From: Fimbriimonadaceae bacterium
GTDB lineage: Bacteria; Armatimonadota; Fimbriimonadia; Fimbriimonadales; Fimbriimonadaceae
Assembly (NCBI GenBank): GCA_019187105.1
Contig: JABAQM010000001.1
Coordinates: 2,758,734-2,822,733 of the forward strand
Direction of reading: 5' to 3'
Length of the DNA stretch: 64,000 nucleotides
Part shown: piece after piece, positions 26,763 through 63,229 of the stretch
Layout: every line of letters begins with the position of its first letter
How positions within the stretch are numbered: the stretch's first letter is position 1
Notes under the pieces: generated by a model
What the model saw: the letters and a program-made list of their open reading frames with translations, nothing else
Databases searched by the model: none
Told to the model about the DNA's origin: nothing
Translations under genes and position numbers: made by a program

Positions 26763-28232
26763 ATGAGCGAACGAAGCGTAGCCAACCGGGTGCTGTTTAT
26801 GAACACGCTCGCCTTTACGGTTTGCTTTGCCGTTTGGACGATGTACGGCGTCCTCATCACCTTTCTGGTCGATAATCGCTACCTGGTTATCGACAAGGCA
26901 CAGGTTGGCTGGCTGATTGGAATCCCAATTCTTACCGGTTCTGTTATGCGCCTGCCGGTTGGTATGTTGACCGACCGATACGGAGGGAAACCGGTTTACA
27001 TCGGCGTCATGCTCTTCGCTGGATTGTCTCTCTTGGTTGCGAGCCAGGTATCGACCTTCACCGGCTTCATGGCAGCCGGCCTTCTGTTTGGCATGAGCGG
27101 CGCAGCCTTCGCGGTAGGAATCGCGTTTTCCTCTGTCTATTTCCCAAAGGAATCGCAGGGAACCGCGCTCGGCATCTTCGGGATGGGCAACGCCGGCTCG
27201 GCGGTGACGACCCTTGCCGCACCCAGCCTGCTCAAGATGTTCACCGACGACGGGAAGAATATCGAAGGGTGGCGGACCCTGCCCATCGTTTACAGTATCG
27301 CGCTGCTGCTGATGACGGCGATCTTCGCGCTCACAACGACCAACAAGAAGATCCCCCTTGATCACCAGAAGTCCTTCAAGGAGATGCTGACCCCGCTTGG
27401 CGACGTCCGGGTCTGGCGCTTTGGCCTGTACTACTTTCTCGTCTTCGGTGCGTTCGTCGCGCTTGCCCAGTGGCTCGTCCCGTATTACTTGAACGTTTAC
27501 GGAATGAGCCTGGCAATGGCCGGCCTACTCGCTTCCGTGTTCAGCCTCCCCTCCGGAGTGATACGGGCCCTCGGTGGATGGGCCAGTGACCGGTTTGGCG
27601 CCCGCGCCACGATGTATTGGGTCCTCAGCACCTGCGCCGTCTTCTTCCTCCTGCTCGTTGCGCCCAGGATGGATATTCGATCGCCTGGAGAAGGGATCAT
27701 GGCCGACAGCAAAGGAAGGGTGACCGCCGTGTCTCCAACTACCGTCGTCGTCGATGACAAGGCTTACACCCTGAAGCCGGAGCCTCCGTTGGATAAGGCA
27801 AAGCTCGAAACCGACACGCTCGTTTGGCCCACGTTCCGGTCATGGCAGGAGCCGAACGTGCAGGTTGGGCAGGAGGTGAAGAAAAAGGAGCTCATTGCCC
27901 GCGGCGTTACCCACGTGTACTTTCAGGCGAACGTCTGGGTCTTCACCGCGCTCGTCTTTCTCGCCGGCATCATGATGGGCATCGGAAAGGCCGCAGTCTA
28001 TAAGCACATCCCTGAATACTTCCCGAAGGATGTGGGAGTCGTCGGAGGCATTGTCGGCGTCATCGGCGGACTCGGAGGCTTCTTCTGCCCGATTCTGTTT
28101 GGATACTTGCTGAAGTCCACCGGCCTGTGGACGTCCTGCTGGCTGTTCTTAGGCGCGCTCTCGATCATTTGCCTCGTCTGGATGCACCTCGTGATCCTGC
28201 GGATGACGAGAGGCATGACCTCGACCCATTAG
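26763..28232 (+). CDS. narK: NarK-family nitrate/nitrite transporter with a large loop insertion
   Basis: A 489-residue MFS protein with twelve predicted helices and the nitrate-signature motif GIFGMGNAGSAVTTLAAP near residue 137. NarK proteins exchange or import nitrate and nitrite across the inner membrane. Residues about 303-388 form a soluble insertion (RVTAVSPTTVVVDDKAYTL...VQVGQEVKKKELIARG) between two late helices, absent from ordinary NarK; it reads like a small beta domain. Expression is probably activated through the palindrome just upstream. It faces the convergent Mo-enzyme operon across the repeat region. Confidence 0.9.
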   Translation: MSERSVANRVLFMNTLAFTVCFAVWTMYGVLITFLVDNRYLVIDKAQVGWLIGIPILTGSVMRLPVGMLTDRYGGKPVYIGVMLFAGLSLLVASQVSTFTGFMAAGLLFGMSGAAFAVGIAFSSVYFPKESQGTALGIFGMGNAGSAVTTLAAPSLLKMFTDDGKNIEGWRTLPIVYSIALLLMTAIFALTTTNKKIPLDHQKSFKEMLTPLGDVRVWRFGLYYFLVFGAFVALAQWLVPYYLNVYGMSLAMAGLLASVFSLPSGVIRALGGWASDRFGARATMYWVLSTCAVFFLLLVAPRMDIRSPGEGIMADSKGRVTAVSPTTVVVDDKAYTLKPEPPLDKAKLETDTLVWPTFRSWQEPNVQVGQEVKKKELIARGVTHVYFQANVWVFTALVFLAGIMMGIGKAAVYKHIPEYFPKDVGVVGGIVGVIGGLGGFFCPILFGYLLKSTGLWTSCWLFLGALSIICLVWMHLVILRMTRGMTSTH

Positions 28233-28247
28233 CCCAGTGGCGGGTGC

Positions 28248-28612
28248 CGTTCCCGTCCGACCCCCTACCCCCGCACGCTATCGCGGCGGGGACTTCCCCT
28301 GGGAGGGGAAGACCGTCTGGGTTCTCCCCCTGGTTAGGGGGAAGGACTGTTGTCTGGGTTCTCCCCCTGGTTAGGGGGAGTCCGTCCCGCTTTGCGTGGA
28401 CGGGAGGGGGTCAAAGAAGGGAGGTGATCGCTACCCGGCTATCCGACCCCTACCCCCGCACGCATCGCGGCGGGGACTTCCCCTGTGAGGGGAAGAACGT
28501 TGGTGGCCCCCTGGTTAGGGGGAAGGACTGTTGCCTGGGTTCTCCCCCTGGTTAGGGGGAGTCCGTCCCGCTTTGCGTGGACGGGAGGGGGTCAGAGAAG
28601 GGAGCAAAGAGC
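28248..28612. repeat. Hairpin-rich repeat, copies 1-2 (left of the DUF559 gene)
   Basis: Two tandem copies of a roughly 160-190-bp unit. Each unit holds CTTCCCCTGGGAGGGGAAG, CTCCCCCTGGTTAGGGGGAG and a CGTCCC...GGACGG stem, and ends near GGGAGGGGGTC. All are perfect or near-perfect inverted repeats, so RNA or ssDNA would fold strongly. The apparent reading frames across it (LPLVRGSPSRFAWTGGG and the like) are by-products of the repeat. Confidence 0.85.
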
Positions 28613-28617
28613 CTGGA

Positions 28618-28992
28618 CTACAAAGTGGTTACCTGTGCACAAGCTTCTCGGATGCGTGATACAACGTCGCCTAGATCGGTTTCCACCTCTGCATTCCAAA
28701 ATCGCAGTACTCGAAGGCCCTGATCCCGGAGGTATTCGCTTCTGGCTTTGTCTCGATCTGCTGTGAACATATGGACGTCGCCATCGATCTCGATCGCGAG
28801 CCGCGCTTCCAAGCATAGAAAGTCAACGACGAATGGACCCACAGGGGCCTGTCTCCGAAAGCGATAACCAATACCTTTGCGTCTAATGGCTTGCCAAAGC
28901 TTCACCTCTGGCGAAGTCATCTTTTTGCGAAGTGACCTTGCCTTGACGACTGCCGTGTCGTACTGTGAAAGTTCCCGCAGACTGCGCGACAT
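28618..28992 (-). CDS. DUF559-family (Vsr/PD-(D/E)xK-like) endonuclease domain protein
   Basis: The product from the ATG at 28992 is about 124 residues; a TTG six codons earlier is possible. It has the DUF559 layout: RSLRKKMTSPEVKLWQAIR, then FRRQAPVGPFVVDFLCLEAR and LAIEIDGDVH, the acidic ExD residues of a Vsr-like nuclease fold, then VLRFWNAEV. The gene is embedded inside the hairpin-rich repeat array, with repeat units within a few tens of bases on both sides. Function is not established for the family. The association suggests that the nuclease and repeats form one mobile or self-propagating unit. Confidence 0.85.
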   Translation of the reverse strand: MSRSLRELSQYDTAVVKARSLRKKMTSPEVKLWQAIRRKGIGYRFRRQAPVGPFVVDFLCLEARLAIEIDGDVHMFTADRDKARSEYLRDQGLRVLRFWNAEVETDLGDVVSRIREACAQVTTL

Positions 28993-29044
28993 TGGACCAG
29001 TTTGTCCCAAGGATGTATAGATTGGGGCCGGTCGGGATTTCTGG

Positions 29045-29930
29045 AATGATCCGACCCCTACCCCCGCACGCTATCGCGGCGGGGACTTCCCCTGGGAGGG
29101 GAAGACCGTCTGGGTTCTCCCCCTGGTTAGGGGGAGTCCGTCCCGCTTTGCGTGGACGGGAGGGGGTCAAAGAAGGGAGGTGATCGCTACCCGGCTATCC
29201 GACCCCTACCCCCGCACGCATCGCGGCGGGGACTTCCCCTGGAAGGGGAAGACCGTTGGCCCCCTGGTTAGGGGGAAGGACTGTTGCCTGGGTTCTCCCC
29301 CTGTTTAGGGGGAGTCCGTCCCGCTTTGCGTGGACGGGAGGGGGTCAAAGAAGGGAGGTGATCGCTACCCGGCTATCCGACCCCTACCCCCGCACGCATC
29401 GCGGCGGGGACTTCCCCTGGAAGGGGAAGACCGTTGGCACCCTGGTTAGGGGGAAGGACTGTTGTCTGGGTTCTCCCCCTGGTTAGGGGGAGTCCGTCCC
29501 GCTTTGCGTGGACGGGAGGGGGTCAGAGAGTCCAGCCTAACGTCACCCCAGCTTGGCTATCCGACCCCTACCCCGATACGCTATCGCGGCGAAGACCGTC
29601 TGGGTTCTCCCCCTGTTTAGGTGGTGTCCGTCCCGCTTTGCGTGGACGGGAGGGGGGTCAGAGAGTCCAGCCTAACACCACCCCAGCTTGGCTATCCGAC
29701 CCCTACCCCCGCACGCTAATCGCGGCGGGGACTTCCCCTGGGAGGGGAAGACCGTTGGCACCCTGGTTAGGGGGAAGGACTGTTGTCTGGGTTCTCCCCC
29801 TGTTTAGGGGGAGTCCGTCCCGCTTTGCGTGGACGGGAGGGGGTCAGAGAGTCCAGCCTAACGCCACCCCAGCCTGGGGCGGGGACTTCCCCTGGGAGGG
29901 GAAGACGGTCCGGGTTCTCCCCATGGCCGG
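29045..29930. repeat. Hairpin-rich repeat, copies 3-8 (right of the DUF559 gene)
   Basis: About five full copies and one partial copy of the unit described at 28248 lie head to tail, each beginning near CCGACCCCTACCCC and ending near GGGAGGGGGTC. Copies differ by small deletions (for example one lacks the CTTCCCCT stem near 29590). The array ends at the stop of the cytochrome b gene. No other gene is visible in this stretch of nearly 900 bases. Confidence 0.85.
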
Positions 29931-29932
29931 GC

Positions 29933-31135
29933 CTATTCTCGGGCGGTGGCGATGGGCTCCGATTCGGAGCTTGCCACGTGTTCGGCAGCGTGGACCGGGG
30001 TTTCGATGATCCCCTTGAGCGTCATCAGCCCAATCATCAGAATGACGAACATCCCCGCCACCATAACCCAACTCCGCTTGGCCGGATGGCGCGACTCCGA
30101 TCGGTCGAGCCAAGGCAGGAACATCATTCCCAGCGTGACCAGTCCCGGAACGATCAGTGTTGCAACGATCTCATAGCCGGCCGGCATGATTTTCAACAGC
30201 TCGTAGAGCCCAAGAAAGTACCACTCCGGTCGGGGCGTGAAGTCGGTTCCCGCAGGATCGGCCATCGGTTCCAACCCCGGCGGAAGCATCGCCGCGAGCG
30301 CGAACACCGCACCGAGGCCGACGACGACCACGACCGCGTCCTTGAACAGCTGGTTGGGGAAGAACGGCTGGGCCGTGCCCTTTTGCGGGATGACTGGGCC
30401 GGCTATGTGGTGCCGCCGCACCAGATACAGGTGGATCGCCACGAAGGCCATCAACGCTGCGGGCAGCAGCATGACATGCAGCGCATAAAAGCGCGTCAGC
30501 GTGAGCGCCCCGACCTCTTCGCCGCCACGGATCAGCACGAGGAGATCTTCCCCAATCACCGGGATCGTCGCGGCGATACGGGTGCCGACGACCGTCGCCC
30601 AATACGCTTTCTGATCCCACGGCAGCAGGTAGCCGGTAAACGAGAAGGCGAGCATGACCTGGAAGATCAGCACGCCGAAAAGCCACGTGAGCTCCCGAGG
30701 CTTCTTATACGAGCCCCAGAAGAAAACGCGCAGCGTATGCAGCACCATTACGACCACGATCGCGGTGGAGCCCCATACGTGTAGACCGCGGATGATGGAC
30801 CCCGCCGAAACCTGATAGGTGAGGTGCTTGACCGAATCGTATGCCGACTGCGGGCTGGGACTGTAGTACATCGCCATTAGCACGCCGGTCGTGAATTGGA
30901 AAACCAGGAGGGTCAGCAGCAGGTTTCCCAGCGTTTGCCACCAGCCCACGCCGGGAGGCATCGGCTCGTCCAGGTTCTTCCGAACGAAGCCCCACCACCC
31001 GAGGCGAAGCTCCATCCAGTCCTTGATTCCCGGACGTTCGCGTTCCACGCGCTTTGCCGGATCCGGCTCATGAGGCGCGGTAACTCTCGGGCGTTCAACG
31101 GTAGAGGTGGTCTTTTTGGGAGGTTCCTTGATCAT
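29933..31135 (-). CDS. Cytochrome b (bc1/b6f-type) of the nitrate-reductase operon
   Basis: The 400-residue membrane protein contains the N-terminal cytochrome b domain (GLHVWGSTAIVVVMVLHTLRV and GYLLPWDQKAYWA) with haem-ligand His in helices B and D (the second helix pair includes YALHVMLLPAALMAFVAIHL) and a C-terminal domain with PEWYFLGLYELLK, the PEWY Q-site motif. The N-terminal 40 residues are polar and Pro/Lys-rich. It overlaps the Rieske gene by four bases. With Rieske and cytochrome c-b partners it could oxidise quinol for the Mo enzyme, as in haloarchaeal nar operons. Confidence 0.92.
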   Translation of the reverse strand: MIKEPPKKTTSTVERPRVTAPHEPDPAKRVERERPGIKDWMELRLGWWGFVRKNLDEPMPPGVGWWQTLGNLLLTLLVFQFTTGVLMAMYYSPSPQSAYDSVKHLTYQVSAGSIIRGLHVWGSTAIVVVMVLHTLRVFFWGSYKKPRELTWLFGVLIFQVMLAFSFTGYLLPWDQKAYWATVVGTRIAATIPVIGEDLLVLIRGGEEVGALTLTRFYALHVMLLPAALMAFVAIHLYLVRRHHIAGPVIPQKGTAQPFFPNQLFKDAVVVVVGLGAVFALAAMLPPGLEPMADPAGTDFTPRPEWYFLGLYELLKIMPAGYEIVATLIVPGLVTLGMMFLPWLDRSESRHPAKRSWVMVAGMFVILMIGLMTLKGIIETPVHAAEHVASSESEPIATARE

Positions 31136-31650
31136 GAGGACACCGTTCGGCCGACATAAATGCGGCCATTTTCAACCTTGACGGGATGCTCGACCAGCCC
31201 GGTTGGTGGCGGTCCCGAAACGACCTTTCCCAGTTCGTCGAACACACCGCCATGACAGGGACAGAAGTAGCGGCGCTGATCGTCCTGGAACTTGATGCGG
31301 CACCCCAGGTGGGTGCAGGCTGGATCGAAACACCTCAGCCCATCGCGCGACCGATGCAGGTACACCGTGTACTTCCGCTCGACCGTCTGATAGCCGTCGA
31401 CGATCTTCAGGACGTAGGCCACCTCGCGAGTCTGCCCGACGGCAAGGTCCCCGTCGCCCAGGACGTCCACCCACTCCTCCTTGGAACGGCGGTTCAGTGG
31501 CCCGACCGCAAACCGGATCGCGGGTATGGCAAGGGCACCCGCCACCACGACGTTGATCGCGGTGACGAGCCATCCCAGCGCCTTTCGCCTGGATACCGGC
31601 TCGGTTGGTTCTTCAAGTATCTTTCCGCAGTTGCAGCTTTCGTGTTCCAT
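31132..31650 (-). CDS. Rieske [2Fe-2S] protein
   Basis: The 172-residue protein has a single membrane helix near residue 30 (ALGWLVTAINVVVAGALAIP) and the Rieske motifs CTHLGC and CPCHGG (CxHxxC...CxxH). An N-terminal CNCG is also present. It lies immediately before cytochrome b (overlap of four bases) and eight bases after the cytochrome c-b gene, so the cytochrome bc-type module is intact apart from cytochrome c1, whose place is probably taken by the c-b fusion. Confidence 0.93.
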   Translation of the reverse strand: MEHESCNCGKILEEPTEPVSRRKALGWLVTAINVVVAGALAIPAIRFAVGPLNRRSKEEWVDVLGDGDLAVGQTREVAYVLKIVDGYQTVERKYTVYLHRSRDGLRCFDPACTHLGCRIKFQDDQRRYFCPCHGGVFDELGKVVSGPPPTGLVEHPVKVENGRIYVGRTVSS

Positions 31651-31657
31651 AGGTCAC

Positions 31658-32773
31658 CTAGGGGTAGTAGCGAAGTCGAACGTCGTCCACCAGGTCGGGA
31701 GCGACGCGCGCGATCACGTCTTTGGCGATGCGCATCGATTTGTGATGGCGTCCGGGCGAAGGCTCGCGTTGGAAGCCGATGTCCGCCTGGGCGTCGGTAA
31801 CGGCCTCGGTCACCCGGGTGAGCGCGACCATCGTCGGCACGATCCAGGCGTGCTGGAACCGGGTGAACGGTGCGGATAGGATGAGGGCCGCGATCGAGCC
31901 CAAATGGTAGATGTAGATCGGCATGACCCATCCGTAGGCCGTGCTTCGGTTGATGAGCAGCGTGAGGATGCCGCTCAGCACGGTGTGCAAGAGCAGGGTC
32001 ACAAACAGGTAGTCGCGGCCCAGAGTCAGCCCGTTGTCGATGTATTCGTCTGTGCGATAGCGACGGAAAACATACAGGACGCCGAGGAGAACCGCCAACC
32101 CGGCCGCGATCGGAAGGATCTTCAGCGGGTTGGAGAGGGCGAGATCGGCTCGCGTCGGGTTATAGATCTGCATCAGCACGTCGGCGAGAAAGAGGCCGAT
32201 CATGCCGTAGAGCATGAGCCCGTGCATGGCCCAGCGGCCCTTGCTCTTCAGCCACAGCGAACGGACAAAAAGGCCATCGACGATCAGCGAATGCAGGGCT
32301 ATCCCCAGTGCCTTTCCATAGCCGAAGCGCTGCAGGGCGGGCGCCATATGCTTGAGCCCGGCGAGCTTGACCCAGTGCCACCAGGCTCGAATGCCGAAGA
32401 TCGCGCTGACTAGGAACACGACCCCGAAGATGCGGAACATGTTGCGCGTCGTGAGCAGCTGTCCGACCTTGTAGGCGAGCGGAATCTCGTCTGGACGCCA
32501 TTCCTTTGCCTGGACTTCTTGGTACACGCGCTGAACGGCTTCTTCGGAGAGCTGGTCGGGCGGCGTGCCCGGCATCATTCCCTTGCCGTTGCGCACGATC
32601 CGGGCAAACTCCTCCGGCGTCAGCTTCGTCTTGGCGATGGGCGGTCCGAGCCCACCCATCGCGTTCATCCCGTGGCAGCCCATGCACGACGACGAGCCAT
32701 AGAGCTCCTTGTTCTTGTCGGCAGGGGCAAAGGCGCAAAGGGCCAGCGCGACGATAGCTACGAGGAATCTCAT
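31658..32773 (-). CDS. Cytochrome c fused to a multi-helix b-type membrane domain
   Basis: A signal peptide and a cytochrome c domain with CMGCH (residues about 30-34) and a Met ligand candidate (GMMPG) are followed by a membrane domain with several helices and conserved His (for example KALGIALHSLIVDGLF, RWAMHGLMLYG, LLLHTVLSG, YIYHLGSIAALI). The layout resembles NarI/DsrM-type di-haem b domains. One polypeptide thus carries both c and b haems. It overlaps the FeS-subunit gene by four bases. Inference: it links the Rieske/cytochrome b pair to the Mo enzyme. Confidence 0.82.
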   Translation of the reverse strand: MRFLVAIVALALCAFAPADKNKELYGSSSCMGCHGMNAMGGLGPPIAKTKLTPEEFARIVRNGKGMMPGTPPDQLSEEAVQRVYQEVQAKEWRPDEIPLAYKVGQLLTTRNMFRIFGVVFLVSAIFGIRAWWHWVKLAGLKHMAPALQRFGYGKALGIALHSLIVDGLFVRSLWLKSKGRWAMHGLMLYGMIGLFLADVLMQIYNPTRADLALSNPLKILPIAAGLAVLLGVLYVFRRYRTDEYIDNGLTLGRDYLFVTLLLHTVLSGILTLLINRSTAYGWVMPIYIYHLGSIAALILSAPFTRFQHAWIVPTMVALTRVTEAVTDAQADIGFQREPSPGRHHKSMRIAKDVIARVAPDLVDDVRLRYYP

Positions 32774-33462
32774 GCCGTCACCTCCTGTTCGACCTGCGGC
32801 TCGGCGGGCCGGCCAAGGGTCGAGACATCCTGCGATGCCATCGGTCCGAGATAGCGTCCGCTGGGCTTGGTCCCGGCTTCAGGGAGCAGGCAGAACGGTT
32901 TGCGGCCCGTCTGCCGATCTTGCTCAGCCATGTAGGTTCGAATGGGGCTGGCGGGGTCCTCAAGATCGCCGAAGATCCTCGCGTGAGTCGGGCAAGCGAC
33001 CACGCATGCGGGATCGAGACCCTCATCGACGCGGTGTGCGCAGTAGGTGCACTTGCGAGCAACCCCCTCGTTCAATCGTGGCTTCACGAAGTCGCGCTCG
33101 TAGGGCTCATCTTCGTTCAGGTACCACGCCTCCTCCTTGTGGAGGATGATGTTGCCGTAAGGACATGCCGATACGCAGGCCCCCGTTCCCCGGCACCGGT
33201 CCTGATCCACCAGGACGATGCCGTCCTCCCGCTTGACGATCGCTTTGTTGGGGCATGCCTTCAGACACGGGGCATCCTCGCAGTGGTTGCAGAGCACCGG
33301 GATATACAGCCGCTTGACGTTCGGGTAGGTGCCCGCTTCCACGTTCAGAACGCGCGCGAAGAAAACGTCCATCGGGGTGCCGTTTTCCTGCTTGCACGCG
33401 ATGGTGCAGGCATCGCAGCCGATGCAGCGCGTGAGGTCGATCAGCATCGACATCCTAGCCAT
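32770..33462 (-). CDS. Iron-sulfur subunit of the Mo enzyme (NarH/DmsB type)
   Basis: The start at 33462 has AAAGGAGG just upstream; the frame before it is not FeS-like. The 230-residue protein has four Cys clusters: CIGCDACTIAC, CNHCEDAPCLKACP, CRGTGACVSACP and CTYCAHRVDEGLDPACVVACP. In the third, the second Cys position is Thr, so this cluster may be [3Fe-4S], comparable to the Trp replacement in NarH. It would pass electrons to or from the Mo subunit. It overlaps its upstream neighbour by eight bases. Confidence 0.9.
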   Translation of the reverse strand: MARMSMLIDLTRCIGCDACTIACKQENGTPMDVFFARVLNVEAGTYPNVKRLYIPVLCNHCEDAPCLKACPNKAIVKREDGIVLVDQDRCRGTGACVSACPYGNIILHKEEAWYLNEDEPYERDFVKPRLNEGVARKCTYCAHRVDEGLDPACVVACPTHARIFGDLEDPASPIRTYMAEQDRQTGRKPFCLLPEAGTKPSGRYLGPMASQDVSTLGRPAEPQVEQEVTA

Positions 33463-33904
33463 TGGATTCCTCCTTTCGTGTGAGCACGGCCGCCAGGGCG
33501 AACGCCGAGAGGCCGGAAAGTCCGAGAGGGGCCAACACCGGCGGCTCGCCGTCAGTCCTCTTTTCAACCGATTCGGCCTCTTCCTCATCGGCTTCTTCGA
33601 TACGACTTTGAGGTGGGCTGCCAAGGACCCCGCCCACGAACTTGCTTAGATCTCCGTCGCTATGGAGCGCCGATCCAAATGCGCCGACAAGGATGCCGGC
33701 TGCAAAGAAAGCACCCAGCCCACCACGTGCTTGCACCTTGGAAATCGCCAGCGCTGAAGCCACCATCGCCAGCAAGGCGTATCCAAGGGGAATCCACGCC
33801 TGCCAATGCTCCTTCAGAACGTCGCGATGGAGGTGGCGGACATCTAATACCATCATTGCGAAGCCTCCGCTAGCGATGATCAAGACCCATTTTCGAAGAG
33901 TCAT
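33455..33904 (-). CDS. Four-helix membrane protein of the Mo-enzyme operon
   Basis: The 149-residue product (start MTLRKWVLIIASGG at 33904, overlapping the Mo-subunit stop as ATGA) has about four hydrophobic helices and an acidic linker (RIEEADEEEAESVEKRTDGE) before the last. The longer frame upstream is not real. I recognise no family. Position between the Mo and FeS genes suggests a membrane anchor or assembly factor; no NarJ-type chaperone is seen in the operon. Confidence 0.72.
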   Translation of the reverse strand: MTLRKWVLIIASGGFAMMVLDVRHLHRDVLKEHWQAWIPLGYALLAMVASALAISKVQARGGLGAFFAAGILVGAFGSALHSDGDLSKFVGGVLGSPPQSRIEEADEEEAESVEKRTDGEPPVLAPLGLSGLSAFALAAVLTRKEESNG

Positions 33905-36342
33905 GCTTCGATCCTCCTGATATCGACTCGGGTGTCCTTCCAGTGCTGGCCGGGCGCATACACGGCGGGAAGGTAGTAGTTCTCGTGGGTCGGCTTGACC
34001 TTTTGGTGGGTGTGGACGGAGTGGTACTTGCCTCCGCCCAAGTACCGGTCCCACCAACCATGGTCCACGCAAAGGACGCCGGGCTTGATCGTTTCCGTCA
34101 CCAGCGCCCACAGCCTGTAGCTCCCGTTGTGGTTGAAAATCTCGACCGGGTCGCCGTCGCGAATGCCGCGGGCAGCAGCATCTCGGGGATTGATTTCGAC
34201 AACGGCGCCCCGGTTGACGTTGAGCAAGACGCGATTATTGCTATGGGTGGAGTGCACACGCCACTTCGAATGGGGCGTGACGATCGCCAGCGGGAGCTTC
34301 TGATCCTCGACGGGTAGGTGCGAGAAGGCGCGCTTATAGGTGGGAAGCTGTTCGCCAAGCTTCGCGAACACGGACTCTTCCTTGTAGAACTCCATCCTCC
34401 CCGTTTTGAGAAACTCCCGCTGGGCGCCTTCGGGAAACGGGTACGCCCGCGGAGGAAACGGCTTGTCTTCGGCAAACTGCTCGTCGCACCCGACCTCCGG
34501 ATCATGGACGTTCAACCGCACCGGACCCTTCTGCAGCATCTCGTAGGTGATGCCGGCGGTTTCCTTTCCGCCGTGCTCAAGGAGCATCGCGATGATCTCC
34601 GGCTCGTCGAAGTCGATCTGCTTGAAGAGGGAAGGATCGACGCGCTTGATCAGCTCCTTCACCATCCACAGTTCGGTGCGGCTGTCGTATTGCGGCCGAA
34701 CGACCTCCTGCTGGATCTGCAGATAGGGATGGCACGACGTCCCCACCAGCTCCTGCTTCTCCCAGAACGTCGGCGCCGGCAGCACCACGTCGCTGTACTC
34801 ACAGGTGGGGCTCATCGAAAAGTCGATCGTGACGAAGAGCTCCAGCTTGTCGATCGCCGCCTTGAGCGGTTCGGAGAATTCGGTCACCAAGGGATTGCCA
34901 TGGGAAACGAACAGCGCTTTGAACCCGTGCTTCGGATACTTGATCTTTGGGTTGATCGTCTGCGTCGGCTCGCCGAGCACAAAGTAGTGCATCGGCACGC
35001 CGTTCGGACGCTTGCCATCGGGAAACCACCACTTGCTGACGTCCAGACGGAAGTGGTGCTGCCCGGAGTAGATCGAGATCGATTCACCCGGCCGGCCGTG
35101 CGCGCCCACGAGTGCGGAGAGCAGGATGATCGACCGGATCGTCAGGTCCCCGTGGAGGCGGTGGTTGATGCCCATGCCGATGATAATCGAGCTCGGCCGG
35201 TTCAGCGCATAGTCCCTGGCGACCTCGCGAATTGTCGCGGCGGGGATGTCGGTTTCCGCCGCCACGTTTTCCGGCTTGTACTCGTCCCGCATGATCGAGT
35301 CTTCGATCGCCTGAAAGACGGGCGTGACGTCGACCGGCACGCCGTCGATGGGAACGGTTCGCCTGCCGCGAAACGCGGGTCTGAGACCATCGGGAAGCGC
35401 AAGCGTATCGGTCGGCAGCTTGAAGGGGCTGTCCGCTGCCTCGTCCCATACCAGGAACTCCATGTCGCTTCCCATCCCAAGATCGGAGGCGCGCAGCCGC
35501 TGCCCGTTATCGGCGCGGATGAGGGTTGCCAGGTCGGTGTACTTTCGCAGGAACGCCCAGTCGATCCAGTCGTTCTCCATCACCACGTAGCACATCGAGA
35601 GGGCGAGCAAACCGTCGGCGCCGGGATGGATGGGGAGCCACAGATCGGCGCCTTTGGCGGTCTGGGAGCATCGCGGATCGATGACGATGATCTTGCAGTT
35701 GTTGCGCTGCTTGGCCACGCGGGTCAGAAATTGAGCGTCGGGTATGCGGGTCTGAAAGACGTTGCTCGACCACAGGATCGCGGTCTTGGCGTGGCCCCAG
35801 GATTTGGTCTCGCATTCCACGCAGTCGATCCCCATCGTATGGGTGAAGCCCATGGAGATGTCGCCGTTGAAGTCATAGGCGGTGGCGAAGCTCATGCCGA
35901 GCAGCGCCGCCATGCGCACCTGGGCGCCCTTCTGCACATAGCCGGTGCCGACCACCTGGTTGAACAGCAGCATGCTCTCGGGGCCATAGGTGTCGCGGAT
36001 GTGAATCATCTTATCGGCGATGAAGTCCAGCGCCTCGTCCCAACTGGCCTCGCGCCACTTGCCCTCGCCCCGTTCGCCGGTTCGGATCAGGGGCTTTTTG
36101 ATGCGGTCGGGCCCATAGATCAGGTGGGTCATGGACATGCCGCGCAGGCAGCCGCGGGGATTGTATTCCGCGCAGGGATAGTCGGCGGCGGGCTTCAGGT
36201 CGACGATGACGTCGTCGACGACGGTAGCCAGCCAGCCGCATGCGCCGGTGCAGTTCGGGCTGTCGGTGGTGCGAACGACGCGAGCGGTGGATGTCGGCCG
36301 CGCCGATCCGTGCTTGCCAGGAACCGAATGTCGTGTCGCCAA
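33901..36342 (-). CDS. Molybdopterin oxidoreductase, type II DMSO-reductase family (nitrate reductase-like catalytic subunit)
   Basis: 813 residues, starting at a TTG with GAGGAG eight bases upstream. The N-terminal Fe-S site is D27-S-P-N-C31-TGA-C35 ... C65 (RGCLRG). By eye this matches NarG (HGVNC...), with Asp at the position of the His ligand. YDFNGD (D161) aligns with the Asp Mo ligand of NarG-type enzymes. No Tat signal is visible, so the active site may face the cytoplasm, consistent with a NarK gene nearby. Known relatives include nitrate, selenate and (per)chlorate reductases and nitrite oxidoreductases. Nitrate is inferred from context. A palindrome upstream suggests anaerobic or nitrate control. 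Confidence 0.85.
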   Translation of the reverse strand: MATRHSVPGKHGSARPTSTARVVRTTDSPNCTGACGWLATVVDDVIVDLKPAADYPCAEYNPRGCLRGMSMTHLIYGPDRIKKPLIRTGERGEGKWREASWDEALDFIADKMIHIRDTYGPESMLLFNQVVGTGYVQKGAQVRMAALLGMSFATAYDFNGDISMGFTHTMGIDCVECETKSWGHAKTAILWSSNVFQTRIPDAQFLTRVAKQRNNCKIIVIDPRCSQTAKGADLWLPIHPGADGLLALSMCYVVMENDWIDWAFLRKYTDLATLIRADNGQRLRASDLGMGSDMEFLVWDEAADSPFKLPTDTLALPDGLRPAFRGRRTVPIDGVPVDVTPVFQAIEDSIMRDEYKPENVAAETDIPAATIREVARDYALNRPSSIIIGMGINHRLHGDLTIRSIILLSALVGAHGRPGESISIYSGQHHFRLDVSKWWFPDGKRPNGVPMHYFVLGEPTQTINPKIKYPKHGFKALFVSHGNPLVTEFSEPLKAAIDKLELFVTIDFSMSPTCEYSDVVLPAPTFWEKQELVGTSCHPYLQIQQEVVRPQYDSRTELWMVKELIKRVDPSLFKQIDFDEPEIIAMLLEHGGKETAGITYEMLQKGPVRLNVHDPEVGCDEQFAEDKPFPPRAYPFPEGAQREFLKTGRMEFYKEESVFAKLGEQLPTYKRAFSHLPVEDQKLPLAIVTPHSKWRVHSTHSNNRVLLNVNRGAVVEINPRDAAARGIRDGDPVEIFNHNGSYRLWALVTETIKPGVLCVDHGWWDRYLGGGKYHSVHTHQKVKPTHENYYLPAVYAPGQHWKDTRVDIRRIEA

Positions 36343-55638: not shown

Positions 55639-56190
55639 TTACTCGACAATTCCTCCGGCAATGAGTAGTTCCCTCCATTCCTCGGGTGTGTTGGCGCTGA
55701 GTGGGCAGAGGGGGTTGAGGCCGGCAGCGGCGAGCTCGGCTTCATTCACCGATCGCAGGTTCAAGGCCTCCAGCCAGCTCATCAGCCTGCGTTCTCCGCT
55801 CGCGTGGATCGCCTGCAAGCGCGTAAACGCGGACGCTCGATAGAGTCCGCACAGGGGCTGCAGCCTATCTTTCACCACTGGCACGACCGCTTCAGCCGCT
55901 CCCGCTTGGGCCAGCAGCAGCTCCACCAGACGGCCATCGAAGAGCGGCACGTCGCACGCGACGACAAACACCCCATCCGCCTGGGGAAGGAAGGCGGCGA
56001 GCGCGGCGAGCGGGCCGGCGCCAGGGTCGGCGTCGAGTACGCCGCCGGGGCCAAGGATCGTGGTGGGATAATCCCGCAGCTCATTGAGCGTGCGCTGGAG
56101 AAGGGTCTTGCCGCCGAGCCTCAGGCCGGCCTTGTCGACACCCATGCGACGGCTCGATCCGCCGGTTAGGACGACCGCTTCGATCTTCAC
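55639..56190 (-). CDS. mobA: Molybdenum cofactor guanylyltransferase
   Basis: 183 residues with the MobA signature VVLTGGSSRRMGVDKAGLRLGG (nucleotide-binding loop and Lys) and FVVACDVPLFDG (metal-binding Asp). MobA adds GMP to Mo-molybdopterin, making the bis-MGD cofactor that both Mo enzymes in this window need. It ends an operon with the CMD, Crp/Fnr and nnrS genes, three bases after the CMD gene. Length and motifs are typical. Confidence 0.9.
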   Translation of the reverse strand: MKIEAVVLTGGSSRRMGVDKAGLRLGGKTLLQRTLNELRDYPTTILGPGGVLDADPGAGPLAALAAFLPQADGVFVVACDVPLFDGRLVELLLAQAGAAEAVVPVVKDRLQPLCGLYRASAFTRLQAIHASGERRLMSWLEALNLRSVNEAELAAAGLNPLCPLSANTPEEWRELLIAGGIVE

Positions 56191-56193
56191 GCG

Positions 56194-56517
56194 CTAGGCG
56201 GGCTTGTCGCCGGAGAGGATGTCGTCCGTCCAGGAAAGCGCCGCCATCATGTTGGGGAAGCCGATGGTGGTGGTCGCCTGCAAGACGGCGTGGCGGATCT
56301 CCTCGGCGGAGATGCCGGCGTCCAGGCACTTGCGGACATGGCTGTGGACTCCCCCTTCAGAGCGGGCGCCGATCGCAATGCCGAGCTTCACGAGCGCCTG
56401 GGCGCGCCGATCGAGCGGGCCGGCTTCGGTGACGGCGTCGCCGAGCGTGCGGTACGCCTCTCCCACGTGAGGATAGTCCTCGATGAACTTGACATAGCGC
56501 TTGGGCAGTTTGGACAT
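56194..56517 (-). CDS. Carboxymuconolactone-decarboxylase (AhpD-like) family protein
   Basis: 107 residues with the CMD family pattern (LDRRAQALVKLGIAIGARSE, VHSHVRKCLDAGISAEEI, AVLQATTTIGFPNMMAAL). The CxxC of active AhpD peroxidases is absent (HSHV with one later Cys), so thiol peroxidase activity is unlikely. Seven bases separate it from the Crp/Fnr gene and three from mobA. Co-expression with nitrate/NO genes suggests a role under nitrosative stress, inferred only. Confidence 0.8.
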   Translation of the reverse strand: MSKLPKRYVKFIEDYPHVGEAYRTLGDAVTEAGPLDRRAQALVKLGIAIGARSEGGVHSHVRKCLDAGISAEEIRHAVLQATTTIGFPNMMAALSWTDDILSGDKPA

Positions 56518-56524
56518 GGCTGGT

Positions 56525-57247
56525 TTACTCTAGCATCGCGGTGTTGAGGGCTTCAACATTGCGCAGGGTAATGACCTGGTGATCGGTGGTGACGATGCCG
56601 CTCTTCTGCCAGCGGCTCATGACGCGGATGCAGGTTTCCACGGTCGTTCCCGCCATCTCGGCGATGTCCTGGCGCGTGAGGGGGACGTTGAGGCGAATGC
56701 CGCCGAGCTTGCCGCTGCGGCCATAGGAATCGGCGAGGATGAGAAGGACGGCGGCGATCCGGTGCTCGATCTTGCCTGCGCTCATGCGCGCCATCATGTC
56801 GTGGGCCCGTCTCAGCCTCGGGGCGAGATTCCGCAGCATCATGTCGCGCAGCTGGGCATTCTCTTGGTACAGGCCGAGGATGGCGCGGCGGGGCACCTTC
56901 AGGTACCAGCAGTTCGTTACGGCGGTGGCAGAAAGGGGAAAGGCGCGTCCCTCGATGGTCGCGAGCAGACCAAAGCACTGGCCAGGTCCCAGCAGCTCGA
57001 CCGCAATCTCGGCGGCCTGCGGCGTGGTACGCGTCATCTTGACGAACCCGTTACCGACAATGCCAAAGAAGTCGCTTGGCGCTCCCGCGATCCAGATCGC
57101 CTCGCCGCGCTCGGCGTAGGCGAGGAAGGAGTCGCCGGCGAGCTGTTGGCGCTCTTCCGGCATCAGGATGTTCATGATCGAGCATGCTTCGATCACCTCG
57201 CAGATGGATGGCCTCTCGGGCAGATCCGGCATGTCAAGTTTAATCAT
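56525..57247 (-). CDS. Crp/Fnr-family transcriptional regulator
   Basis: 240 residues: an N-terminal cyclic-nucleotide-binding-like sensor domain (WIAGAPSDFFGIVGNGFVKM, GPGQCFGLLATIEGR) and a C-terminal winged HTH (VPLTRQDIAEMAGTTVETCIRVMSRW). The N-terminal Cys pair (SICEVIEAC) does not match the FNR four-Cys cluster; a haem or NO sensor of the DNR type is possible. In the recognition helix, ETCIR replaces FNR's ETISR, which fits an altered half-site. It lies downstream of nnrS in the same operon and probably controls the ATGAC-N4-GTCAT promoters. Confidence 0.87.
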   Translation of the reverse strand: MIKLDMPDLPERPSICEVIEACSIMNILMPEERQQLAGDSFLAYAERGEAIWIAGAPSDFFGIVGNGFVKMTRTTPQAAEIAVELLGPGQCFGLLATIEGRAFPLSATAVTNCWYLKVPRRAILGLYQENAQLRDMMLRNLAPRLRRAHDMMARMSAGKIEHRIAAVLLILADSYGRSGKLGGIRLNVPLTRQDIAEMAGTTVETCIRVMSRWQKSGIVTTDHQVITLRNVEALNTAMLE

Positions 57248-57253
57248 GGCGGA

Positions 57254-58600
57254 TTACGCGGCCTCCGTCACGAGTGTCCGCTGGCGCATAACCCGAACCA
57301 TGGAAGCGCCCCACACGACGATCGCGGTGAGCTCGACGAACCCGGTAATGCCCATCGGAGCGAAGGCGGCGGGGGTGAAGTCGGTGGCGATTTCGGCGAG
57401 GACGCGGGTTGCGTTGCCGGCATTCAGGAGCCAAAACGTCATCCAAAGAGGGTTCAGTCGGGACTCGTCCAAGCCATTCATCCGGCTGGCGACGCGATAG
57501 CCGACACCCATGATCATCTGCGAAATGAAGCCGACGGTTACGGCATGCCGGATTGCGCCGGTATAGGCGTGCGAGAACGGTTGCCCTTGCAGCGAGAGCA
57601 CGAAGGGCTCGACGAGCAGCAACAAGCCGGCGACCAGGAGCCATCCGTAAGCCGCCCGCATGAATTTGTGCGACGGCAGTGAGAAGCCAAGCGGGGCAAA
57701 AATGCGGCATGCCATGGCGGCATTGGCGGCGCCGATCGCCAAGCACACACCGCCGGCAAAGTAAGCGAACATCCCTGGTCCCTGCAAGCCGCTGCTGAAC
57801 GCCCAAAGCCACCCACCGATGCGCAGCGCCAGGCCGGCCATCCACCATCCGTAGGCTGACATTCCCCACCCCCGATCGGCGGGTTCGGCGCCAAAGCAGG
57901 AAGCGAACTTGGTGAAGGAGACTCCGAAGATCATCATCGCGACAAAACCGTGGAACTGGGCCTCGCGGAGGGGCACGAACCACTCGGCGACGAAGCGGAT
58001 GGACGCCTGTGAGTCCGGCTGATGCGACCCGACGAACACGAACGGTTCGACGGCGGCGACGAGCACCATCCATCCGAGGCTGGTCAGTACGAACCATCCC
58101 GGCCATTCCAGGCGTTCAGCCCCACGGTGTCTGGTGAACGTGACGTTGCCGATAAAGAGCAGCACCGCGATGAGTTGGGAGGAGCAGGCGATGAGACCGA
58201 GGGTAACCGAGCCGGTCGGCTCCGCGACAAAGCGCAGGGCGATCCCAACCGCCATCAGCCCCAGCGAAGCCCATGCCAGCCCGTGGAACAGACGCAGCCG
58301 GTGGTTCGAGGGGGCGTGATGCTGCAAGGCGAAGCCCATTACGAAGAACGCAACCCAGCCGAAGAGCTGGGAGTTCGCGTGGGCGAGGATATAGGGGGTC
58401 CACGCCGAGGCCGTGTACGACTTGGCTTGGGCGATGCCGAACAGGGCGATGGCGCCAAGGAGGCACCCGGCGGTGAGGACGGCGGCGATACCGGCCAGAA
58501 AGTAGGGCCGATAGATTTCGACTGACGCCTTCGCGCCGGGAGCATGAACAGTGATGCGGGTTGGAAGCACTCGTAGCGAAAGCTGGTCGGATCGCGCCAT
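57254..58600 (-). CDS. nnrS: NnrS family membrane haem protein
   Basis: 448 residues with about twelve membrane helices and His-rich segments typical of NnrS ([57 protein letters not shown]). NnrS proteins bind haem and copper and relieve nitric-oxide stress. The ATG at 58600 follows a -10-like ACTATC by six bases, implying a leaderless message. The Crp/Fnr-type palindrome lies 36 bases upstream of the ATG. It heads the operon nnrS-crp/fnr-CMD-mobA. Confidence 0.87.
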
Positions 58601-58635
58601 TGGGTTGATAGTGATCGGAGCGGGGGGCCAGAACC

Positions 58636-58649
58636 ATGACAGCGGTCAT
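58636..58649. promoter_or_regulatory. Crp/Fnr-type palindrome in the nnrS / Mo-enzyme divergent promoter region
   Basis: ATGAC-AGCG-GTCAT. Toward nnrS its centre is about 42 bases from the ATG, the class II distance if the transcript is leaderless. Toward the second Mo enzyme it is about 70 bases upstream of the likely start. It could control both directions. Confidence 0.75.
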
Positions 58650-58699
58650 ATTCCTTCCAATCGCAAGCGGCGCAGAGGGCAACTGGGCCAAAGCGTGCC

Positions 58700-58705
58700 C
58701 ATAAT
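58700..58705 (+). promoter_or_regulatory. -10-like box CATAAT of the second Mo-enzyme operon
   Basis: CATAAT ends seven bases before the ATG at 58713 and no ribosome-binding site precedes that ATG, again pointing to a leaderless transcript. Confidence 0.45.
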
Positions 58706-58712
58706 CGTAACG

Positions 58713-60892
<2,180 letters not shown>

Positions 60893-60896
<4 letters not shown>

Positions 60897-61492
60897 GCGA
60901 GCGTCAATTCTATATCGATCCCAGCCGTTGCATCGGCTGCAACGCCTGCGTGGCCGCCTGCGCGGAATGCGACACCCACGCGGGCGTTTCGATGATCCAT
61001 CTTGAGACCATTCAGCGCGGCGACAGCGTGCAAACCACGCCCGTCATCTGCATGCATTGCGAGGAACCGGCCTGCGCAATGGTATGTCCAGCGGATGCAA
61101 TCAAACGCACGGCGGACGGCGTGGTTCAAAGCTCTCTGAAACCCCGCTGCATCGGCTGCACCAACTGCGTGTTCGCCTGTCCATTCGGCGTGCCGAAGTA
61201 CGACGCCCAAATTGACCAGATGATGAAGTGCGACATGTGCTACGACCGAACCTCGGTCGGCAAGAAGCCGATGTGCGCTACCGTATGCCCCTCCCAGGCG
61301 CTCATGTACGGAACCCCGGAGGAAATCGCCGCGCAGCGACACGGTACGCCGGTGAACGAGTTTGTCTTCGGATCGCGAAAGATCCGAACGAAGGTCAGCC
61401 TCATGATGCCGCCCGGCTCCAAGCAGTTGGAGGTCAAGGTCGGCACCGTGATCCGCAAGAGCGACTTGCTCGAAACTTCGAGGATAGGATAA
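60893..61492 (+). CDS. Four-cluster ferredoxin subunit
   Basis: 199 residues with four Cys clusters: [41 protein letters not shown] and [11 protein letters not shown]...CATVCP, the layout of electron-transfer subunits of Mo oxidoreductases (HycB/NrfC-like). The ATG overlaps the Mo-subunit stop (ATGA) and its own TAA overlaps the Rieske ATG. It probably carries electrons from the Rieske or b-type partner to the Mo enzyme. Confidence 0.88.
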
Positions 61493-61974
61493 TGGATGAA
61501 CACCTTCGCCAGGATTTCCCGATCGACTGGGAGGATGACGGATACGTTTCGCGACGTGAATTCTTCAAATTCATGACGGTTGCCAGCGGCGGCTTGGCTT
61601 TGGGCTCGATCGGACTCGCGGCCTGGTCACGCACGCTACGCGACCACCGAACGTTCGAGCCGAAGCTGGTTGGCACGCTGCAGTCGATCGCACCTGGTTC
61701 AGCGCTGCCGTTCACCTATCCGCGCGACACGGATATCTGCCTTTTGATCAGGCGTCCGGACGGGGAGATTGCCGCATTCTCCCGTCGATGCACGCACCTT
61801 TCCTGCCCAGTCGACTATCAGCCGTTGAAGGGACGGCTCTATTGCCCGTGCCACAACGGCGCGTTCTCGGCTGAGGACGGCAGCGTTATCCAGGGGCCGC
61901 CACCCCATCCGTTGCCTCAGATCATGATCGAAAACCGGGATGGCGAGCTGTGGGCGGTAGGGGTACGGTCGTGA
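61492..61974 (+). CDS. Rieske [2Fe-2S] protein with Tat-type signal/anchor
   Basis: 160 residues. SRREFFKFMTVASGGLALGS is a twin-arginine type signal or membrane anchor. The Rieske motifs are CTHLSC and CPCHNG. The longer upstream frame lies inside the ferredoxin gene and is not real. An exported Rieske protein next to a cytoplasmic-type Mo enzyme implies electron transfer across the membrane, presumably through the b-type cytochrome encoded just downstream. Confidence 0.9.
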   Translation: MDEHLRQDFPIDWEDDGYVSRREFFKFMTVASGGLALGSIGLAAWSRTLRDHRTFEPKLVGTLQSIAPGSALPFTYPRDTDICLLIRRPDGEIAAFSRRCTHLSCPVDYQPLKGRLYCPCHNGAFSAEDGSVIQGPPPHPLPQIMIENRDGELWAVGVRS

Positions 61975-62192
61975 AACCGGACCTTCTGATCAAACGCCAG
62001 CGCGCGACCGTGTTTGTCGCGCTCCTCCTGTTTAACTTGGTGCTTATCCTCCTGCAACTATGGCTGTTTGCCAGCGTGCTTGAGGCTTTGGCTCATGGGG
62101 AATCCCAGATGGCCATACCCGCTGCCATGGCCAGTGTCGGACTCTTCTTGGTGAATGCGTGGATGCTCGGGGGCTTGAGGCGCCTCGATTAA
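61971..62192 (+). CDS. Small two-helix membrane protein
   Basis: Seventy-three residues from a GTG that overlaps the Rieske stop (GTGA). It has two hydrophobic helices (TVFVALLLFNLVLILLQLWLF and AAMASVGLFLVNAWML). It ends one base before the stop of the convergent gene at 62193. Perhaps a membrane anchor for the Rieske/Mo complex. Confidence 0.7.
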   Translation: MKPDLLIKRQRATVFVALLLFNLVLILLQLWLFASVLEALAHGESQMAIPAAMASVGLFLVNAWMLGGLRRLD

Positions 62193-63218
62193 CTACCCAA
62201 CGTAAGGCTGGCCGTCGATCAGGGCCGCCTGGTTCAAGGCGATCAGACGCCTCTTTTCGGCTGGCGATAGATCCTGGTGGGGCCCGAAATCGATATCCAG
62301 CTCCCGCATGACGGCGACCATATCGTCGTGGTGCATTTGGCTCTGGTAGGGGACTCCTGACCGAGAGCATATAGCCTGCTCCGTCCTCTCGCCCTCCTCC
62401 TTGTAGTAAGCCACACCAAGCTGCGCCGGCCGCTGGATCACATGAAACAGCTTGCCAAAAGGCAGCCACAGGAGAAGGACCACCACGGTGAACGCGTGCA
62501 ACAAGGACAGAAAGGCGAAATTTTCCCCGTGCATGAACTTGTAGCTCGCCGTAATCATGAGTCCGGTGACGGAAACGGCGAACAGCAAGAAGAGAGGAAT
62601 CAGGTCGTTGGCCAAGGTTTGGACGGCGCGAGCCCCACGGTCGAACATGCGGCGGTGCATGGCCAAACCAACGCCGGCGAGAACCATAACCGCGCTGATG
62701 TTGAGGCCATTGAACATCAAGAAGCCGACCACGCTATTGGGTGGGAAGGCAAACATGCCCATTCCCATGAACTCGACGACGTAGTCCCGGCCGTTTTGAG
62801 CGACGCCGAACTGGACCCAGCCCCAACTGAGCGGGAAGGTTATGGCAAACGCAAGCAGGCATCCCCATGCCAGGCATAGGTGGGCTGCCCATCGCTGTCG
62901 GCTTCGCTTCTCGATAAATCGTTGCGCGATGATGTCGTCCCAAAGCAGACGAATGAACCGCAGTAGGTTTGGCAGCAGCCGGCTGGGGCGGAAGAAGAGG
63001 CGCCAACTGGCAAGAAAGTATCGCCATGTGGGAGGTCGCTGGATCCACATCGCGTATCGATACACGATCGCAAATGCTGCGAAGACGGTCGCTGCGGCAT
63101 AAGCGGCCAAGGGGCGGTCGAACCGTGACAGCGCCCCTGAACCAAAGTAGATGCCGCCCGTCACCAAGAGGGCGGCAACCAATCCGGCACAGAGAGCATT
63201 CGCTTGCGATCGACTCAC
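62193..63218 (-). CDS. NarI/DsrM-like b-type cytochrome membrane protein
   Basis: 341 residues with about six membrane helices and several His (AAHLCLAWGCLLAFAITF, MASYKFMHG-like, LSLLHAFTVVVLLLWLPFGKLFHVI), as in respiratory b-type subunits that take electrons from quinol. The soluble C-terminus has YYKEEGERTEQAICSRSG. It is transcribed toward the second Mo cluster and follows the NarK-like gene by eleven bases. Likely partner of the Rieske/Mo module, inferred. Confidence 0.75.
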   Translation of the reverse strand: MSRSQANALCAGLVAALLVTGGIYFGSGALSRFDRPLAAYAAATVFAAFAIVYRYAMWIQRPPTWRYFLASWRLFFRPSRLLPNLLRFIRLLWDDIIAQRFIEKRSRQRWAAHLCLAWGCLLAFAITFPLSWGWVQFGVAQNGRDYVVEFMGMGMFAFPPNSVVGFLMFNGLNISAVMVLAGVGLAMHRRMFDRGARAVQTLANDLIPLFLLFAVSVTGLMITASYKFMHGENFAFLSLLHAFTVVVLLLWLPFGKLFHVIQRPAQLGVAYYKEEGERTEQAICSRSGVPYQSQMHHDDMVAVMRELDIDFGPHQDLSPAEKRRLIALNQAALIDGQPYVG

Positions 63219-63229
63219 CGGTTAAGACT

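Follow-up and report, generated by a model that had tools for sequence, protein, structure and literature searches.

Two groups of described enzymes are among the closest to the system analyzed here. For the haloarchaeal nar operons, nitrate reduction coupled to an antimycin-sensitive Q cycle has been proposed (PMC2483277; PMC4683180), and Thermus NarCGHI offers a precedent, known from experiments, in which NarI binds a periplasmic cytochrome c (PMC7694296). In this work, we analyzed a 64,000-nucleotide window of contig JABAQM010000001.1 from a Fimbriimonadaceae bacterium (Armatimonadota; assembly GCA_019187105.1). The minus strand of this window (29933-36342) carries six genes encoding, in this order, a molybdenum (Mo) subunit, a small membrane protein, an iron-sulfur (Fe-S) subunit, a cytochrome c-b protein, a Rieske protein and a cytochrome b. 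An initial annotation of this DNA had suggested that the operon could couple a Q-cycle-like step to nitrate reduction. We propose that it would encode a cytoplasm-facing respiratory nitrate reductase from a new clade of type II dimethyl sulfoxide (DMSO) reductases, that has a Q-cycle quinol oxidase of its own and a haem wire through the membrane, and we rate the chances of this proposal as even. No earlier description of this enzyme was found in the open literature, and Armatimonadota are not mentioned in a 2023 survey of the DMSO reductase superfamily (PMC10100899).

Operon structure and conservation

All six genes of the overlapping operon reported in the initial annotation are present (Table 1). 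Adjacent genes overlap by 4-8 nucleotides or are separated by a gap of 7 nucleotides, a spacing as in translationally coupled operons. The start of the Fe-S subunit was set at the ATG at 33462 because AGGAGG lies ahead of it, and a longer open reading frame (ORF) start, assigned mechanically, was rejected for this reason.

Table 1. Genes of the operon and the linked transporter gene, with positions in the window (aa, amino acids)
Feature	Position	Strand	Description
Mo subunit (catalytic, Mo-bis(pyranopterin guanine dinucleotide))	36342-33901	-	813 aa, TTG start
Small membrane protein	33904-33455	-	149 aa, start MTLRKW, about four hydrophobic segments, no family
Fe-S (beta) subunit, four-cluster	33462-32770	-	230 aa, ATG start MARMSML, 15 conserved Cys
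Cytochrome c-b fusion	32773-31658	-	371 aa
Rieske [2Fe-2S] protein, membrane-anchored	31650-31132	-	172 aa
Cytochrome b, b6/bc-type	31135-29933	-	400 aa, N- and C-terminal domains in a single chain
NarK-family nitrate/nitrite transporter	26763-28232	+	489 aa, beyond the operon end

Of 291 Armatimonadota genomes sampled, 37 gave a match to the Mo subunit in a protein search (66-85% identity), and the relatives of the operon in named genomes belong to metagenome-assembled genomes (MAGs) of this phylum labelled Fimbriimonadaceae, Chthonomonas and similar. One relative labelled Acidobacteria (L091) may be a misbinned Armatimonadota contig. The genes for the Mo subunit, Fe-S subunit, cytochrome c-b protein, Rieske protein and cytochrome b are complete and colinear in 27 of the 30 neighbourhoods fetched, an arrangement far beyond chance; the exceptions are a contig end (L048), a Mo gene standing alone (L046) and a locus without Rieske protein and cytochrome b (L043). 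The remaining gene, encoding the small membrane protein, was detectable by tblastn in only 2 of the 30 relatives and is therefore taken as an accessory part. The narK-type gene, missed in the initial annotation, belongs to the conserved neighbourhood and is linked in 18 of the 30 loci, in 14 of them at 63-74% identity. L043 (6728-10869, on the same contig as L096) comes from a distantly related Armatimonadota MAG. One open frame of about 1116 aa there joins the C-terminal portion of the Mo subunit to the Fe-S subunit, haem c and the b domain, with a SLAC1-type channel encoded after it; this frame may be an artefact of low-coverage assembly.

The linkage of the Rieske and cytochrome b genes to the Mo subunit, as presumed in the initial annotation, is thus clear within Armatimonadota, but Firmicutes relatives do lack both. 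Desulfosporosinus PR and SbF1, Peptococcaceae CEB3 and one Bacillota MAG harbor a three-gene version (Mo subunit, Fe-S subunit and NarI-like b protein) that also lacks haem c, and the Desulfosporosinus-type relatives are 55-57% identical. The Desulfosporosinus loci are flanked by hcp (scoring well above the cut-off of the hydroxylamine reductase hidden Markov model, HMM), by genes for hemerythrin or a NIR_SIR/4Fe-4S protein (NIR_SIR in one locus), and by a SLAC1-type anion channel gene. No canonical NarG was found in the seven non-Armatimonadota genomes carrying the enzyme. Desulfosporosinus species have been described to reduce nitrate without NarG or with only a 30% match to it (PMC10949509, Table 1), which this enzyme may help to explain, although the nitrate-reducing strains named there could not be matched to the Mo enzyme.

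Molybdenum and iron-sulfur subunits

The Mo subunit has neither a twin-arginine translocation (Tat) signal nor a transmembrane segment. Its Asp161, which is invariant, aligns with the Mo ligand of NarG, and this residue, the four-cluster beta subunit and a fold like that of PcrA, EbdA and NarG are all features of the type II DMSO reductases. The closest solved structures by sequence and fold (Foldseek top matches) are PcrA, EbdA, Kuenenia Nxr and NarG, with PcrA the nearest at 29% identity. The best HMM match was to the type II DMSO reductase subfamily TIGR03479, with 486 bits and a cut-off of 984.75; the protein thus lies outside this named subfamily, though it is its best family match.

A maximum-likelihood tree of Mo subunits was built without NxrA, SerA, DdhA and EbdA, and Kuenenia NxrA was compared by structural match only. 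In this tree, which places the protein relative to NarG, pNar, PcrA and ClrA, the Mo subunit groups with the Firmicutes homologues (100/100) and then with a Tat-exported Desulfosporosinus clade and Chloroflexi sequences, and the clade that contains it is the sister of ClrA, PcrA, pNarG and NarG together. The Mo subunit thus represents a deep type II clade of its own and not a NarG; membership in NarG, pNar, PcrA or ClrA was rejected by the tree and the HMM scores. No relatives of the Mo enzyme were found in the viral contigs searched, and the nearest plasmid match (32% identity) is a ClrA-type enzyme encoded beside a chlorite dismutase. A conjugative plasmid of Alisedimentitalea scapharcae (L066, 6672-12201) carries genes for a chlorite dismutase, a ClrA-like Mo subunit, an Fe-S protein, TorD and a cytochrome c, a cluster that is a probable mobile chlorate reductase island.

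Two cluster ligands pointed out in the initial annotation were verified. First, Asp27 (codon 36262-36264) occupies the position of the His that ligates FS0 in NarG, within the context D-S-P-N-C31-T-G-A-C35...C65, and all 20 Armatimonadota sequences compared have this Asp; this position is a His in NarG, pNarG and PcrA, and a Cys in the sister clades. FS0 would therefore not be ligated by His as in NarGHI. The active-site residues of the Mo subunit differ from those of both NarG and PcrA. Second, Thr93 (codon 33184-33186) replaces the second Cys in the third Cys motif of the Fe-S subunit (CRGTGAC), and of 29 sequences, 26 have Thr and 3 have Ala at this site. The equivalent position is Trp in NarH, Tyr in pNarH, Phe in ClrB, and Cys in DmsB and the sister clades. 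Since a Thr stands at a Cys position, the cluster at the third motif is probably [3Fe-4S]. The loss of Cys at both FS0 and the third motif, in kind as in NarGH but with other residues, suggests tuning that was independent of NarGH, and the two parallel swaps offer a natural experiment in the tuning of Fe-S potentials.

Proposed electron route, energetics and alternative readings

The single protein with both c and b haems that had been predicted is borne out by its motifs. It consists of an N-terminal membrane anchor, a cytochrome c domain (CMGCH at residues 30-34, MM66-67) and a b domain with five transmembrane segments, which combines a NarI-like fold with a QmoC/TcuB-like sequence, in agreement with the reported absence of a classical NarI. 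Invariant His184, His290 and His308 of the b domain correspond to His56, His187 and His205 of NarI, the last two matched by alignment and His184 by a manual alignment shift. Twelve of 28 relatives encode the Fe-S subunit and the c-b protein as a fusion in a single open frame of 610-726 aa, and one of the fusions lies in a complete chromosome (CP054189; L080). In these fusions, the Fe-S part is followed by a single hydrophobic helix and then by one or two cytochrome c domains and the b domain. The AlphaFold model of one such fusion (L076) places, with high confidence, a first transmembrane helix (TM0) at 246-267, then the cytochrome c, and five long membrane helices at 367-395, 436-462, 474-499, 509-535 and 538-561, and its membrane part matches E. 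coli NarI (probability 1.0, E 0.02). As a single transmembrane helix separates Fe-S from haem c in the fusions, the two would lie on opposite faces of the membrane. Tat signals are missing throughout the clade but present in the sister Desulfosporosinus and Chloroflexi clades and in haloarchaeal pNarG. Taken together, fusion topology and missing signals would put Mo and Fe-S on the cytoplasmic side of the membrane and haem c on the outer side, and a cytoplasmic Mo active site, lacking a Tat signal as in NarGHI, is very probable.

The last two genes encode proteins with the full set of Rieske/bc hallmarks, including the Rieske ligand motifs CTHLGC and CPCHGG, kept in relatives, the four haem-ligand His of cytochrome b (His119/133 and His220/235) and a conserved Qo motif (PEWY at 303). 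The operon has no dedicated cytochrome c1 or f, and its sole haem c is that of the c-b protein. A genome-wide search detected only one other bc-type cytochrome b in the host, which also has an alternative complex III able to serve general quinol oxidation; for both reasons the Rieske/cytochrome b pair looks dedicated to the Mo enzyme.

In the proposed mechanism, the Rieske/cytochrome b pair, whose motifs are conserved, would oxidize quinol at its outward-facing Qo site and release protons outside, with half of the electrons recycled via the b haems and half passed to the Rieske center. The Rieske head would then reduce haem c of the c-b protein, which would stand in for cytochrome c1 or f because the operon has no other cytochrome c. 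From there, the five-helix NarI-like b domain would conduct electrons to the four-cluster Fe-S subunit, a direction that we take as inward because of the natural fusions and the lack of Tat signals. Finally, the Mo center would reduce nitrate to nitrite in the cytoplasm, with nitrate entering and nitrite leaving via NarK or, in relatives, a SLAC1-type channel. Nitrate/nitrite chemistry is likely, with nitrate as substrate inferred from gene linkage, and passage of electrons through haem c is somewhat more probable than a route that avoids it.

The charge count would be two from the Q cycle and two from inward electron transfer, that is, four per nitrate vs. two for NarGHI, a figure that we hold to be less likely than not. 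Menaquinol has a potential of -74 mV. With nitrate at +433 mV (PMC10100899), about 1.0 eV per two electrons would be on hand vs. about 0.72 eV required at a proton-motive force of 180 mV, so that the four-charge scheme would be energetically allowed with menaquinol; with ubiquinol it would be marginal. A fuller scenario, which we hold to be rather unlikely as a whole, has two parts. Within one respiratory assembly, a Q cycle would feed a cytoplasmic nitrate reductase in series via fused Fe-S, haem c and haem b, at four charges per nitrate, and the enzyme would have originated independently of NarGHI: a Tat-exported, all-Cys ancestor would have lost its export signal and exchanged Cys for Asp (FS0) and Thr (third motif), mirroring the His and Trp of NarGH.

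The interpretation of the initial annotation finds partial backing in a complete Rieske/cytochrome b pair, linkage to a nitrate/nitrite transporter, hcp in relatives, the cytoplasmic location, and the lack of canonical NarG in the host and seven relatives. Several observations weigh against the proposed nitrate reductase. The assignment as a Nar enzyme is not upheld: the Mo subunit falls outside NarG, pNarG, PcrA and ClrA with supports of 100/97 and 100/98, scores 253 bits vs. a cut-off of 1084 with the narG HMM (TIGR01580), has Asn in place of the active-site-proximal Tyr220 of NarG, and reads Y-4x-D-11x-D where NxrA and NarG have the signature Y-4x-D-11x-Q (PMC6050957). The lack of NarJ, noted initially for the operon, extends to the 99.55%-complete genome, in which no NarJ/TorD protein (PF02613) was found, although NarGHI and pNar have a NarJ-type chaperone. 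The b domain keeps three of the four His of the dihaem NarI anchor and lacks a counterpart of His66, a ligand of the distal haem in NarI; this haem may be five-coordinate or otherwise ligated, and with His66 missing, a continuous path from the positive to the negative side of the membrane via two bis-His b haems is not established. In the AlphaFold model of the L076 fusion, the Fe-S domain is unusable and interfaces are not readable. Linkage is broken in L046, which has no partner genes, and in L043. Across the phylum, no genome has both the Mo enzyme (37 genomes) and canonical NarG (11 genomes), but this mutual exclusion is not significant (P ~0.22).

The most serious alternative is a cytoplasmic nitrite oxidoreductase (NXR), in which the electrons of nitrite would travel outward over Fe-S, b and haem c, ending at a terminal oxidase, and reverse operation of the Rieske/cytochrome b pair would make quinol. 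Searches of the host genome found no NirK, NIR_SIR protein or NrfA and no convincing NirS, which would make nitrite a dead-end product. NarK can transport nitrate as well as nitrite, bidirectionality is frequent among type II enzymes (PMC6050957), and Nitrobacter-type NXR clusters resemble Thermus nar, with a similar c/b arrangement (PMC7694296). However, stopping at nitrite (partial denitrification) is common, strict anaerobes (Desulfosporosinus) have the enzyme too, there beside hcp, the Gln of the NXR signature is not kept, and RuBisCO was not found in the host genome; we consider nitrite oxidation improbable.

The Firmicutes version of the enzyme, in which the b domain alone must take the electrons, raises a second alternative, namely that the b domain oxidizes quinol as in NarGHI and that haem c and the Rieske/cytochrome b pair form a branch to other periplasmic acceptors, so that nitrate reduction would gain nothing from the Q cycle. 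Such a branch point has been proposed for Thermus NarC (PMC7694296). The retention of Rieske and cytochrome b with the operon in 27 of 30 Armatimonadota loci, the lack of a periplasmic nitrite reductase among the proteins found in the host, and the Fe-S/haem c fusion, which argues for haem c on the main route, leave this arrangement with little likelihood. A third possibility, the proposed wiring with chlorate, another oxyanion or an N-oxide as substrate, could draw on the ClrA-type plasmid match, on active-site residues unlike those of NarG and PcrA, and on a second nitrate-type Mo enzyme 22 kb away, but seems a poor candidate given the narK linkage, the hcp, NIR_SIR or SLAC1 genes beside the enzyme in Desulfosporosinus relatives, and the lack of a recognizable chlorite dismutase in the neighbourhoods read.

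If the proposal of a Q-cycle-coupled nitrate reductase is true, a nitrate respiration enzyme would have been overlooked by narG and napA HMMs in the 37 of 291 Armatimonadota genomes and in some sulfate reducers, and the nitrate reduction potential of communities with such bacteria would be undercounted. The enzyme would also be a test case for the energy conserved by nitrate respiration, with a Q cycle and inward electron transfer placed in series, and, if the anatomy works as suggested, the energy per nitrate could be roughly doubled.

Genomic surroundings and comparison with known systems

The host genome (3.3 Mb, 99.55% complete) encodes five Mo-superfamily proteins: a formate dehydrogenase-like protein, a NasC-type enzyme, the operon enzyme, NuoG and ActB of the alternative complex III (the first and the last two named by reading their sequences). 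None of the five is a canonical NarG or NapA. The NasC-type enzyme (829 bits, cut-off 1100) is part of a second nitrate-type cluster (55639-63994) that also encodes a Rieske protein, a NarI-like cytochrome b and NarK, with a Crp/Fnr regulator, an NnrS-like protein, a CMD-family protein and MobA as neighbours. Several relatives harbor a similar cluster directly beside the main operon. An assimilatory role of this cluster is doubtful, since no nitrite reductase was found in the genome. The NarK linked to the main operon has a soluble insertion of about 80 residues between two transmembrane segments, which closely related operon-linked NarKs keep and more distant NarKs lack. GC-rich direct repeats fill the interval from narK to the cytochrome b gene (28000-29940) and include six units of about 180 nucleotides and families of 69-81 nucleotides in seven to eight copies. 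On the other side, four ORFs between 40927 and 52519 share a near-identical RHS-core-like start (MPKRQYHIVDGRVIGETSGGVRTDYL), have unrelated C-termini and are interspersed with small ORFs, an array that looks like RHS-type polymorphic toxin cassettes.

Among known systems, the haloarchaeal nar operons (Haloferax/Haloarcula narABCGHJ, pNar; L132, L133) likewise encode a type II Mo subunit and a four-cluster Fe-S subunit with a Rieske protein and a bc-type cytochrome b. The parallel drawn in the initial annotation stands for this linkage, but as an analogy only: pNarG is Tat-exported, has His on FS0 and belongs to a different clade, its partner has Tyr in the third Fe-S motif, and pNar is accompanied by an EbdC-like haem protein and TorD, none of which is shared by the operon enzyme. 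Bioenergetics differ as well because of this export, and with a cytoplasmic Mo subunit electrons would have to re-cross the membrane. Thermus NarCGHI shares cytoplasmic NarGH, a NarI-type b anchor, a periplasmic cytochrome c and an adjacent NarK; in contrast, NarC is a separate dihaem protein fused to neither b nor Fe-S, and the operon has classical NarG, NarJ and NarI without Rieske/cytochrome b.

E. coli-type NarGHI likewise has cytoplasmic Mo and Fe-S subunits, a NarI-fold anchor, an Asp Mo ligand, a non-Cys FS0 ligand and one cluster with only three Cys. It differs in its clade, in its FS0 (His instead of Asp) and third-motif (Trp instead of Thr/Ala) residues, in the length of NarG (1247 aa vs. 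813 aa) and in having NarJ and His66 of NarI. PcrAB and ClrABC, also of the type II family, are exported and soluble, without membrane anchor or Rieske/cytochrome b, and the FS0 position is His in PcrA and Asn in Alisedimentitalea ClrA. Many Desulfosporosinus genomes (L138-L140) encode a Tat-exported Mo/Fe-S/NrfD enzyme of the sister clade, with a Mo subunit 43% identical to that of the host, also located near hcp in the loci examined; it has an NrfD anchor and Cys at both FS0 and the third motif, no functional characterization of it was found, and it is a candidate exported nitrate/nitrite enzyme. The operon described here thus joins the Rieske/cytochrome b feature of haloarchaea and the outside cytochrome c feature of Thermus, here in fused form, around a Mo subunit that belongs to neither clade.

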